Shown: positions 19,209 through 23,763 of the stretch, piece after piece
Position numbering within the stretch: position 1 is the stretch's first letter
How the letters are laid out: every line of letters starts with the position of its first letter
NCBI GenBank assembly: GCA_002787815.1
Contig: PCUY01000026.1
Span: 1-33,816 of the forward strand
Direction: 5' to 3'
Length of the DNA stretch: 33,816 bases
Origin: Bacteroidetes bacterium CG12_big_fil_rev_8_21_14_0_65_60_17
GTDB lineage: Bacteria > Bacteroidota > Rhodothermia > Rhodothermales > UBA10348
Made by a program: the position numbers and the translations under genes
Notes under the pieces: model-generated
What the model saw: the letters and a program-made list of their open reading frames with translations, nothing else
Told to the model about the DNA's origin: nothing
Databases searched by the model: none

Positions 19209-21566
19209 ATGCACCGTTATCCGAGTATTTTCTCTCATTTTCGCGCCGTTTTCCTGCCCATTTTCCTGTTTCTGGTTGGCGCTGTCCTGACGTTGACTCC
19301 TGCCGTACACGCCCAGGAATTCGGTGCGGCCCTTGCCATCGCGGATGACCAGATCATAGCCTCCGATCTGGGCAGCGGTGCATCGGCCGGACAGGTATAT
19401 GTATTTTCCCGTGGCGTCGACGGCTCTTGGGCGTCGACGGACGTCCTTTCGCTCGCCGGTCCGGATGCGGATGCGGATGGTTATGGCCAGGCACTGGCAG
19501 CCGACGGTGCGACGCTCGTTGTCGGGGCCGGGCTGCGTGGCCTGGTCGATATCCACACCAGAGGCGCCGATGGATCATGGACACGCGTCCAGCGACTTGC
19601 CGAAGAGGCAGCTGGCTTTGGCCGCGCCGTGAGCCTTGACGACCATATGCTGATCGTGGGCGCTGAAAATGGCGCGTTCGGCTACCACCGGGGACAGGAT
19701 GGCGTGTGGGTGCCGGTTCCGGGACTGGATGCCGGTGTGTTCGCGGACAATGCAGACCATGGTGCAGCGGTCAGCGTGGAAGGAACGCGTGCGCTTGTGG
19801 GTGCTCCCGGCGCCAATGACGGAAACGGTGAAGTCCATGGGTACTACTTCCAGGATGGTGCATGGCATGCCAGTGGGCGCCTGGACCTGCCGGCTGCCGG
19901 AGAGGGAACGGCTTTCGGGACGTCTGTCCTGGTGCATCACGGATTCGCGCTGGCTGGTGCCCCGGGGTATGACCGGCGCATTGGCGCCGTGGGTGTGTAC
20001 GCGTGGGACGAGGAAACGACGTCCTACAGCTTCTCAACGAGACTCACGTTGCCAGCTGCGAGCGGCAATGAGAGACTGGGTGCATGGCTGGCCTACAGTG
20101 AGCATGTCGTCTACGTGGGAGCGCCCATGACGAACCGCGCGGAGGGTGCCGTGCATGCCTTCCGCGCCGAGAACCACATGCAGACGTGGATGGTACAGGT
20201 GCCGCTTCCCGTCGATCTGCAGGTGAGGAATGGTCTGGGCTCCCGCCTGGCGGTGCAGGGAGATCTGCTTGTGGCAAGTGCCCCCATGTATGACAATGGG
20301 GAAGGTGCCGTTGTGGTATATGAAAAAGGAGACGACGGCTCCTGGATGCAGTCCTCAGTCGTGTATCCTGACGAGGGCGCGGCCTACGCATCCATCACAG
20401 GCAGTGAAATGCCCTGCGAGGACGGTTCGGCAGGCGGATGGACCTGTCAGGACGTGGACATGATTTCGTTTTTGTCTGTTTCGGATATCGGAGGCGTGCG
20501 TGGAACACGTACGAACGACATCTGGGGTTGGACCGATCCGGAGACGGGACGTGAATACGCCCTCGTGGGCCGAACCGATGGTATGGCCTTCGTTGACGTT
20601 ACCGATCCCACCATGCCGGTCTATCTGGGCAATATGGACCGCACCCCGGGCGCACCACCGTCGGTGTGGCGCGACATGAAGGTGTACAGGGACCACGTGT
20701 TCGTCGTCGCTGATGGCGCCGGTGAACACGGCATGCAGGTCTTTGATCTGTCGCGACTGCGAAACGTGGAGAACGCGCCGGTTGAATTCGAGCCGGACGT
20801 GCTGTACGACGGAATTGCCAGCTCCCACAATATCGTAATCAATGAGGAAACGGGATTTGCCTACGCCGTGGGTAATCGCATGGGCGGAGAGACATGTGGT
20901 GGTGGCCTGCATATGATTGACATCAGTTCACCGAAAGTGCCCGTATTCGCCGGTTGTTTCGCGCATGAAGGCACGGGTCGCAGCGGAACAGGTACGACGC
21001 ATGATGCCCAGTGCGTCGTGTACCGCGGGCCGGACAGTGACCATGCTGGAAAGGAAATTTGCCTCGGATCGAACGAAACAGCCCTCTCCATCGCGGATGT
21101 CACCGACAAGAAAGACCCGACTGTCATCTCAATGGCTACGTATCCCGCGATTGCCTACACCCATCAAGGGTGGCTCACGGAAGATCAACGCTTCTTTTTC
21201 ATCAATGACGAAGGAGACGAGCCGCAGGGACTTGTGGATGGCACAAGAACACTCATTTTCGACCTCGTGGATCTTGATGACCCGGTTCTCGTGGGTGAGC
21301 ACATATCTACCGAGAAGAACACGGACCATAATCTGTACGTGCGCGGCAACACGATGTATCAGTCCAACTACCAGTCGGGCCTGCGTATTTTCGATATCAC
21401 GGACCCGGAAAGTCCCCAGGAAATTGCCTATTTCGATACCGTTCGCAACGACGCCACGGGAGGCGGCTCCTGGAGCAACTATCCGTATTTCGAAAGTGGC
21501 ACGATTGTCGTGACATCCGGCCGCGAGGGACTGTTCATGCTCAGGAAGAAGGAGGTGGATCTGTAA
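19209..21566 (+). CDS. Choice-of-anchor B family surface protein
   Basis: A 785-residue exported protein. The signal peptide ends near VHAQ (A35). Residues about 37-390 contain integrin/FG-GAP-like blades with repeated cores such as ALAADGATLVVGA, VEGTRALVGAPG and VLVHHGFALAGAPG. Residues about 400-780 are the 'choice-of-anchor B' region with LVIVD-type blades: GMAFVDVTDPTMPVYLG, GLHMIDISSPKVPVFAG, ALSIADVTDKKDPTV and GLRIFDITDPESPQEIA. Histidines at SSHNIV, THQGW and DHNLY are typical of the family. The C-terminus lacks an obvious type IX sorting domain. Such proteins are extracellular beta-propellers of unknown function. It probably shares a transcript with the heptaheme gene. Confidence 0.87.
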   Translation: MHRYPSIFSHFRAVFLPIFLFLVGAVLTLTPAVHAQEFGAALAIADDQIIASDLGSGASAGQVYVFSRGVDGSWASTDVLSLAGPDADADGYGQALAADGATLVVGAGLRGLVDIHTRGADGSWTRVQRLAEEAAGFGRAVSLDDHMLIVGAENGAFGYHRGQDGVWVPVPGLDAGVFADNADHGAAVSVEGTRALVGAPGANDGNGEVHGYYFQDGAWHASGRLDLPAAGEGTAFGTSVLVHHGFALAGAPGYDRRIGAVGVYAWDEETTSYSFSTRLTLPAASGNERLGAWLAYSEHVVYVGAPMTNRAEGAVHAFRAENHMQTWMVQVPLPVDLQVRNGLGSRLAVQGDLLVASAPMYDNGEGAVVVYEKGDDGSWMQSSVVYPDEGAAYASITGSEMPCEDGSAGGWTCQDVDMISFLSVSDIGGVRGTRTNDIWGWTDPETGREYALVGRTDGMAFVDVTDPTMPVYLGNMDRTPGAPPSVWRDMKVYRDHVFVVADGAGEHGMQVFDLSRLRNVENAPVEFEPDVLYDGIASSHNIVINEETGFAYAVGNRMGGETCGGGLHMIDISSPKVPVFAGCFAHEGTGRSGTGTTHDAQCVVYRGPDSDHAGKEICLGSNETALSIADVTDKKDPTVISMATYPAIAYTHQGWLTEDQRFFFINDEGDEPQGLVDGTRTLIFDLVDLDDPVLVGEHISTEKNTDHNLYVRGNTMYQSNYQSGLRIFDITDPESPQEIAYFDTVRNDATGGGSWSNYPYFESGTIVVTSGREGLFMLRKKEVDL

Positions 21567-21570
21567 AAGA

Positions 21571-21721
21571 GTGTTCAAGAACCAGCGTGCGCCAGGATGC
21601 GAGCGCCGGGATGCCAGATCCAAGGCGTCCCGACGCCGAATAGTTGCGCTATTCGAAGGAGGGACAACGCCGGAGATGGCATTCCGCCGCCGCACCAGGG
21701 TGTACGATGGTTCTTCAACAC
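21571..21721 (+). repeat. 151-bp near-complete imperfect palindrome (long hairpin)
   Basis: The element is self-complementary end to end around its exact midpoint at 21646. Its ends are GTGTTCAAGAACC (21571-21583) and GGTTCTTCAACAC (21709-21721), one mismatch in 13. The apex is CGAATAG-TTGCG-CTATTCG (21637-21655). Internal arms also pair, for example GGGATGCCA with TGGCATTCC and GTCCC with GGGAC. At least three non-Watson-Crick positions are G·U on the plus strand (they would be A·C on the other), which favours a structured RNA read in the direction of the genes. It begins 5 bp after the anchor-B stop. A MITE/ERIC-like intergenic repeat is the main alternative. Confidence 0.78.
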
Positions 21722-21735
21722 GCTTCTCAAGCGTG
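21719..21735 (+). repeat. Small perfect hairpin before the heptaheme gene
   Basis: CACGCTT (21719-21725) and AAGCGTG (21729-21735) form a perfect 7-bp stem with loop CTC, 30 nt before the ATG at 21766. Its first three bases are the last three of the 151-bp palindrome, so the two structures compete at their base. No T-run follows, so it is not a typical terminator. Confidence 0.65.
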
Positions 21736-21765
21736 CAGATTCGGCTCGTTGCTACGGTCAGGAAA

Positions 21766-23763
21766 ATGGCGACCGCTGTGCTCCTGGCCTGCGCGGTTGT
21801 TCTGGCTCTGTCAGGGTGTAGCAGGAACAGGGATGCCCTGCAAACAGCGACAGACGGACCCATTTACAGGAACTGGACGGGGGAAGCGACCTACGTGGGC
21901 CGTGAGACCTGTGCCCAGTGCCACCAGCCGCAGTATGATTCGTTTGTGCGCTCTCAGATGGGGCGTTCATGGAAACATGCGCAACGCTCCTTGTCCGATG
22001 CCGACTGGAATGATCCTCCCGCGCTCCGTGACGAATTCAACGATCTCTATTTTCAGCCTTTTGCTGTCGGGGAGGATCTGTTTGTGCGGGAGTTCCGCCT
22101 TGATGGTGCCGATACCACACACATGCGTGTGGAGCAGATCGATTTCATTGTTGGTTCCGGCCACCATACCAATAGCCACATTTACGAAGAAGGCGGATAT
22201 CTGTACCAGATTCCAGTCACGTGGTACGCGCAGGATGCCAAATGGGGATTGGCGCCAAAATTTCAGAAGCCGGGCAACAACTTCAGATTCAGTCGTGTCA
22301 TCACGGACGAATGCATGGCGTGTCACAACGCGCCACCGTCGTTTGTCCCAAGCTCTGAAAACCGCTTCAACGACGTTCCGTCAGGTATCGGATGTGAAAA
22401 TTGCCACGGGCCGGGATCCGTTCACGTGGAGGAAAAAGAGGCCGGAATCATTGTCAATGTGGCCGAGGAAATTGACGCTTCCATTGTAAACCCGGGAAAA
22501 CTCATTCCGGAACGGCAACTTGATGTATGCAAGCGATGCCATATGCAGGGGGTGGCCGTCTTTGCCGACGGAGAGCAGCCACTGGACTGGCGCCCGGGCA
22601 GGACTCTTGCTGCACATGAGCAGGTGTTCTGGCCGCGTCAGCCGGATTCGGTGTCGAATTTCATCATGGCATCGCACCCTGATCGTCTGGCCATGAGCGC
22701 TTGTTTCGAATCCACGTGGGAATCGTATCGGAATGCCGGAGGCGCGAAGGCCCTGAATGATTCCGGTGGCGCGTCCAGGCCGCTGACCTGTTTGACGTGT
22801 CACGATCCCCACATGCCTATTGAAGAGATGCCTGACGGGCACTACGATGCGATATGCCAGAACTGTCATGAAGGCCCGAAGGCATTGACTGGTCCGTGCA
22901 CGGAACCTTCAGTCGTCGCGGGAACCAACACAGCGTCCTGTGCATCGTGCCACATGCCGCCATCGGGTACATCGGACATTCCGAATGTGAAGGTGACGGA
23001 TCACTATATACGCGTCGTGGAACGAGACTCATTGCCTCCGGAGGGTGTCGAGGAGCAGCGTCGTTTTCTCAGGTTGGCGGCTCTGATCGGAAGCAATGCT
23101 TCACACCGCCAGGTGGCAGACGGTTTCCTGACGTATTTCGAGCAATTCACCGACAGGCCAGGTATGCTCGATTCAGCTGCCGCTCGTCTGCAAAAAGCAC
23201 GGCGTGTAGATCAAGACGAGAACTTGACGACATCCTGGATTAGATTGTGGCACCTGAAGCAGGACTATGCGGCTACAGTCCGGTTTGTGACGTCGGATGA
23301 CTTTTCCGAGCCTCACGACGCATGGACGCTGTATCGGATGGGGCAGGCATTTCGACAGACAGGACGACTGGATGAAGCCGTCGTCTACATGGAGCGGGCC
23401 GTGGCATTGGGAGAGGACCATCTTCGGTTTACGGATCAACTTGGCGCGGCGTATGTGGATGCAGGTCGTTACGAAGATGCCGTGCGAGTGCTGACACGTA
23501 ACGTGGAACGACAGGAACGATTCGTTGAGTCGTGGATCAACCGGGGATTTGCCCGGTTGCTGCTTGGAGATTTTGATGCCGCTGAGGCTGATTTCAAGCA
23601 GGCGCTGCGAATGGAACCTGACCAGGAGCAGGCATTGGCAAATCTTGCGTCGCTTTATGCGAACACGAATCGCGGGGATGCGGCCCGCCCGCTTGTGCGT
23701 CGACTGCTGAAGCTTTCACCCGGACATCCGGGATACCAACAACTCTGGAATGCCCTTCAATAA
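21766..23763 (+). CDS. Heptaheme c-type cytochrome lipoprotein with TPR domain
   Basis: A 665-residue lipoprotein: the signal ends at ALSGC (C18). Seven CXXCH heme sites are present: CAQCH 49-53, CMACH 183-187, CENCH 210-214, CKRCH 255-259, CLTCH 342-346, CQNCH 364-368 and CASCH 392-396. Residues about 440-665 are helical tetratricopeptide repeats (YRMGQAFRQTGRLDEAVVYMERAVALGED; INRGFARLLLGDFDAAEADFKQALRMEPD). Cytochrome-c554-like multihemes fused to TPRs are known, usually of undefined role in periplasmic or extracellular electron transfer. The start at 21766 is chosen for the lipoprotein signal; the frame is open back to 21571 but there it crosses the palindromic element. Confidence 0.9.
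   Translation: MATAVLLACAVVLALSGCSRNRDALQTATDGPIYRNWTGEATYVGRETCAQCHQPQYDSFVRSQMGRSWKHAQRSLSDADWNDPPALRDEFNDLYFQPFAVGEDLFVREFRLDGADTTHMRVEQIDFIVGSGHHTNSHIYEEGGYLYQIPVTWYAQDAKWGLAPKFQKPGNNFRFSRVITDECMACHNAPPSFVPSSENRFNDVPSGIGCENCHGPGSVHVEEKEAGIIVNVAEEIDASIVNPGKLIPERQLDVCKRCHMQGVAVFADGEQPLDWRPGRTLAAHEQVFWPRQPDSVSNFIMASHPDRLAMSACFESTWESYRNAGGAKALNDSGGASRPLTCLTCHDPHMPIEEMPDGHYDAICQNCHEGPKALTGPCTEPSVVAGTNTASCASCHMPPSGTSDIPNVKVTDHYIRVVERDSLPPEGVEEQRRFLRLAALIGSNASHRQVADGFLTYFEQFTDRPGMLDSAAARLQKARRVDQDENLTTSWIRLWHLKQDYAATVRFVTSDDFSEPHDAWTLYRMGQAFRQTGRLDEAVVYMERAVALGEDHLRFTDQLGAAYVDAGRYEDAVRVLTRNVERQERFVESWINRGFARLLLGDFDAAEADFKQALRMEPDQEQALANLASLYANTNRGDAARPLVRRLLKLSPGHPGYQQLWNALQ

Follow-up and report, generated by a model that had tools for sequence, protein, structure and literature searches.

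The window analyzed here, a stretch of 33,816 nt (contig PCUY01000026.1), comes from a Rhodothermales MAG (G000; 2.9 Mb, 90 contigs) and holds a long end-to-end hairpin between two co-directional genes. The upstream gene encodes a surface protein and the downstream gene a heptaheme cytochrome, an assignment borne out by 7 CxxCH motifs in the translation. The features of the interval, in window coordinates, are these:

19209-21566, plus strand: surface-protein gene upstream of the element (FG-GAP_2 and LVIVD repeats), with its stop codon inside the target site
21563-21566, plus strand: left 4-bp target site GTAA, which includes the surface-protein stop codon TAA (21564-21566)
21567-21725, plus strand (family-model orientation also plus): palindromic element of 159 bp, read here as a MITE copy; its ends are fixed by alignment with 34 other long copies and by the 4-bp target duplication
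21567-21584, plus strand: left terminal inverted repeat AAGAGTGTTCAAGAACCA (family consensus AAGCGTGTTGAAGAACCA)
21618-21680, plus strand: conserved core around the apical hairpin (GATCCAAGGCGTCCCGACGCC, GAATAG-TTGCG-CTATTC, GAAGGAGGGACAACGCCGGAGATGG); edges approximate
21708-21725, minus strand: right terminal inverted repeat, which reads AAGCGTGTTGAAGAACCA on the minus strand
21719-21735, plus strand: second, smaller hairpin CACGCTT CTC AAGCGTG, perfectly paired and formed by the element right end plus host flank
21726-21729, plus strand: right 4-bp target site CTCA, equal to the left site at 2/4 positions
21766-23763, plus strand: heptaheme cytochrome gene downstream of the element, lipoprotein-type, with TPR repeats at the C-terminus; likely start ATG 21766

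From inside the element, an open frame (21571-23763) continues into the cytochrome gene; its passage through the element is incidental, the likely true start being ATG 21766, and gene callers may place the cytochrome start inside the element. Folded as RNA, positions 21560-21740 reach an MFE of -99.7 kcal/mol, against -59.8 +/- 4.1 for dinucleotide shuffles (z -9.8), which confirms that the hairpin proposed in a preliminary description of the locus is real and far beyond chance; the minus strand of the hairpin region also folds (-87.1, z -7.7). The 13-bp ends GTGTTCAAGAACC and GGTTCTTCAACAC pair with one mismatch and the GAATAG/CTATTC apical stem is present, both as first described, but the 151-bp extent does not hold: comparison with other copies shifts the edges to 21567 and 21725. 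The second hairpin at 21719-21735 is indeed perfect, with 7 pairs and -7.2 kcal/mol, but its right half lies outside the element, and it aligns to the host sequence that congeners have at the empty site. The terminal inverted repeats of the window copy are 18-bp ends with 2 mismatches, and other copies have matched ends. The element has a GC content of 59%, carries neither a transposase gene nor any other gene of its own, and scores 182.5 bits (E 1e-36) with covariance model R1. An integron attC site was dropped on inspection, because the GTT/AAC ends point the wrong way.

The preliminary description had left open a regulatory RNA, a processing site or an ERIC/MITE-like repeat, and had proposed a copy search of the genome and its relatives in which many copies at unrelated loci would mark a mobile palindromic repeat. 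This is the outcome that we obtained. The search of the own genome returned 14 matches at unrelated loci; five of them, on five contigs and with 80-100% identity, are nearly full length, and a covariance model built from these five recovered further shortened copies. The nearest congeners, MAGs OFTM240 (G002) and OFTM130 (G003), each hold roughly 20-25 copies, again at unrelated loci; since every genome of the genus appears to be a MAG, with contigs often ending inside the repeats, these numbers are lower bounds. In G001, the third congener, the sole representative is a longer relative of 271-287 bp with the ends and core in common. This second, longer family, also palindromic, shares its ends with the short element and has a core related to it. 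It was seen at L126, L127, L148, L149, L160, L161 and L162, and in three cases (L192, L194, L195) it is nested within the apical region of the short element, twice at an identical position.

At the window locus itself, the surface-protein gene is followed by the cytochrome gene after a short gap, without the element, in G001, G002 and G003. The cytochrome is 81-82% identical to that of the window in G002 and G003 and 68% identical in G001; in G002 and G003 pyruvate kinase comes next, as it does in the window. Model R1 had no match at 15 named cytochrome loci. The surface-protein stop codon is TAA in the window and TAG at the empty site of the three congeners. For a further eight copies, chimeric queries made by joining the two flanks located the orthologous site in other congeners, where the full element is missing. 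The clearest of these pairs displays the 4-bp duplication directly: the occupied site G000:C9 reads CCGCC-CTGG-[AAGTCC...GGACTT]-CTGG-AAGG, and the empty site in G002 reads CCGCC-CTGG-AAGG. Over 32 copies, the flanking 4-mers agree at 88/128 positions, against 68.1 +/- 3.9 when right flanks were dealt at random (0/5000 shuffles); neither the other lengths tried nor inverted matching gave a comparable signal. The target consensus is YTAR (CTAG, TTAG, CTAA, TTAA and variants such as CCAG). The target duplication of the window copy is decayed, GTAA on the left facing CTCA on the right. The family has these features of a MITE: it is short and lacks a transposase gene, it has terminal inverted repeats and duplicates its target, it is multicopy with empty sites, and an IS in a congener has the same ends, as would a related autonomous element. 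The mobile palindromic repeat named in the preliminary description thus stands, on its many unrelated loci, empty orthologous sites and target duplication.

The transposase of that IS is one of the PF01609 transposases of the genus. The IS lies in G002 (L207/L211), is about 1.46 kb long, and carries its transposase between TTAA-AAGCGTGTTGAAC... and ...TTCAACACGCTT-TTAA; it shares the 12-bp end AAGCGTGTTGAA with the MITE, and its YTAR-like 4-bp target is of the type that the MITE uses. The best NCBIfam match of the transposase is IS1182, at 262.8 bits just short of the cut-off of 270, and IS5_4 (176.8 bits) exceeds its cut-off of 140. Unlike this IS1182/IS5-group element, the MITE lacks a transposase gene, and no match to the conserved core of the MITE was found in the G002 IS. 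The ends and target in common suggest that this DDE element is likely the autonomous partner of the MITE, and we infer that its transposase could mobilize the MITE in trans. A second IS1182-type IS, in G003, reads CTAG-GAGTCCGTCGGACTT...-CTAG. The first, G002-type transposase is intact, in one copy, in G002 only; it is split with a stop in G000, reduced to a short fragment in G003 and absent from G001, and no clear matching ends were found around the broken G000 gene. The window copy has a decayed target duplication, and the one matching transposase found in its own genome is broken; it is probably now a fossil that no longer moves. For IS1272, of the IS1182 family, replacement of inverted repeats with no target duplication has been reported (PMC5678879), in contrast to the 4-bp duplication of the window family.

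We posit that in the lineage of this genome the MITE would have inserted at the YTAR-like tetranucleotide formed by the surface-protein stop codon, duplicating 4 bp, and that a DDE transposase from the IS1182/IS5 group, whose element has ends and 4-bp target type in common with the MITE, most likely moved it in trans. To this reading, of the hairpin as a palindromic non-coding MITE copy inserted at a stop codon, we assign a probability of about 0.9. After insertion, the hairpin would belong to any read-through transcript of both genes, in which RNase III may cleave it or it may protect the end of the upstream mRNA. A target that coincides with a stop codon offers a harmless landing place and lets the element sit between operon genes. 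At 14/80 element ends, the window included, the TAR of the target is the exact stop codon of the upstream ORF. Active targeting of stop codons is not required for this: of the YTAR sites in the flanks, 14/210 close an ORF as it is, and that share would rise through selection against insertions within genes, so that the target motif and this selection together may suffice for the excess. In a simple codon-usage gene model, a gene 3' end lies within 20 nt of 19/54 copies and a 5' end within that distance of 3; 23 copies have codirectional, 11 convergent and 9 divergent gene neighbors. Copies that lie against the 3' end of a gene appeared by inspection to point in either direction relative to it, which argues against one sense RNA. 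In three genomes, a paralogue of the window surface-protein gene has a family copy or remnant at its 3' end (G003:C13 L109, G002:C75 L143, G000:C30 L051/L060). The OFTM240 cytochrome locus occurs twice, near both ends of contig JAJCYR010000091.1 (L015 and L016), probably through assembly duplication or overlap.

Could the hairpin be something other than a MITE? A chance palindrome or assembly artefact, for which all that speaks is that the genomes are MAGs, has practically no chance of being right: the z-score of the fold already refutes it, as do the homologous copies that several genomes of the genus carry at unrelated loci, and relatives occur in other families, among them in two genomes assembled into one and three contigs. 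A repeat of the REP/REPIN type, moved by a Y1 (RAYT) transposase, would likewise be intergenic, palindromic and multicopy. Y1 elements are not known to leave a target duplication, and the clear 4-bp duplication of this family, together with identical ends on an IS with a DDE transposase, makes such an origin very improbable. The reading that the locus most readily invites, an attenuator, riboswitch or processing hairpin acting as a conserved cis-regulatory RNA of the cytochrome gene, draws on the very stable fold of the transcribed strand, the position between two co-directional genes, the strong covariation of the arms and the better plus-strand fold of every copy compared (both described below). 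It is refuted, as a conserved regulator, by the empty sites, since none of the three congeners has the element at this locus, an absence that the preliminary description had listed in advance among its grounds for giving up the idea of a regulatory RNA, or of a processing site, linked to the cytochrome. Copies also adjoin unrelated genes in every arrangement; Rfam searches with the region (up to E 5) and with six related loci gave no match, and the region has no match resembling an intrinsic terminator or a promoter. We consider this explanation highly unlikely, and the tempting picture of an RNA switch for a heme gene gives way to a mobile repeat family.

A regulatory role of another kind would be compatible with the MITE as an added effect: an exapted hairpin could set the 3' end or processing of the surface-protein mRNA and lower cytochrome expression. 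The element begins at the stop codon and its RNA fold is very stable, and comparable effects are documented for other bacterial MITEs, with Correia elements cut by RNase III and ERIC located at 3' ends (review PMC10969869). An effect of the window copy on its own transcript, such as RNase III cleavage, is possible. Against exaptation stand the absence of a U-tract terminator and the copy-specific nature of the effect; we regard it as a tentative possibility, somewhat on the unlikely side.

The arms of the element covary. Across 22 genus copies, two-sided changes occur at 16/60 pairs, against 4.8 +/- 1.5 in shuffled and 3 to 5 in slid controls, and the outermost stem varies in matched pairs (CGTGTTG/CAACACG, CCCGTTG/CAACGGG, CGTTTTG/CAAAACG). 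Because the copies lie at unrelated loci, this covariation belongs to the mobile family as such. Either one arm is corrected against the other, as template switching within the palindrome would do, or a folded strand is under selection. Covariation among dispersed repeats is thus no evidence for a riboregulator, a caution for similar cases. The plus strand folds better than the minus strand in 22/22 copies; for the longer relatives the reverse holds. G.U pairs, which the preliminary description took as a sign of selection on the transcribed RNA, do not bear this out: a strand-neutral arm alignment of the window element gives 4 G.U vs 2 A.C pairs, which is not telling. For the family, a tally on the RNA-derived structure gives 6 consensus and 19 derived G.U pair types vs 10 A.C (p 0.017), and the strand-neutral arm alignment of the consensus 6 G.U vs 3 A.C (p 0.5). 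Given the latter value and the non-independence of the copies, we reject the G.U pairs as proof of plus-strand RNA selection.

The family extends well beyond the genus. A second model detects it in 16/114 genomes of the order, from 12/49 genera and seven families; among these 16 are the two genomes of one and three contigs, with 6-7 copies. The core (21618-21680 in the window) is the part best kept between genera and families of the order. Distant relatives retain it (CAAGGCG...apical hairpin...AACG) but have different ends (GGCTGTGTTTGA; TGCTGCGTCAAG; AGGCTGTTGAAA), and CTAG or TTAG borders many of them despite the changed ends. Genera with other element ends must use other transposases. It is conceivable, if rather doubtful, that the core marks an order-wide, perhaps wider, element in which the structured middle is kept and the ends are swapped to fit different transposases, with the folded single strand under selection and the hairpin a transposase-borrowing parasite. 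Were this so, then, taken with the compensatory changes from arm to arm between copies, selection would act on the folded strand, whether in the form of RNA or of an intermediate in transposition or replication; and the hairpin would borrow transposases instead of being a simple deletion product of one IS. Two IMG/VR viral contigs (L284, L285) contain palindromes with the same core, one of them with CTAG on both sides. A distant blastn search of plasmid and phage collections gave no match to the element.

Among known repeats, ERIC/IRU (127 bp, enterobacteria) resembles the window element as a palindromic intergenic repeat found at times at gene 3' ends and differs in host group, probably in sequence, and in its TA target. 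Bacterial MITEs such as Correia, Nezha, Chunjie, MITEAba12 and QMITE (PMC10969869) too are short and non-coding, with terminal inverted repeats and target duplication, and they are intergenic and multicopy, form a stable RNA hairpin and are likely moved in trans by IS elements. The window family is set apart by its near-perfect end-to-end palindrome, by a composition that is not AT-rich and by a target that is often a stop codon. A palindrome-centered family of Geobacter metallireducens, with a central GRCGTAGCGCTGCTACGCC and 24 copies, appears under the term predicted short RNA elements in PMC2700814; judged by eye from the central motif described there, its apical hairpin is similar in design, and its copies are intergenic. 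Titles and abstracts in the literature on IS1182 with MITEs, on MITEs at stop codons and on MITEs in Rhodotherm- taxa contained none that describes the window family. It is a new family of palindromic MITEs, of a kind that is itself known.

The genomes also contain many solo ends of the family. At the site of the G003:C55 copy, the sister genome G002 retains the left end only, which suggests that solo ends are likely deletion remnants. Some solo left ends, 20-40 bp in length, lie immediately 5' of ATG codons (L055, L064, L067). An IS-like end, GGCCTGTTMACACTA or a close variant, recurs beside copies (L007, L013, L068, L192), twice adjoining N runs (assembly gaps), and could perhaps belong to another abundant IS. 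Finally, in L120, L121, L122, L137, L138 and L140, another hairpin, GCGCCGGTAYCGGCGC, takes the place of the apical hairpin or is added to it, as if the hairpin tip were an exchangeable module.
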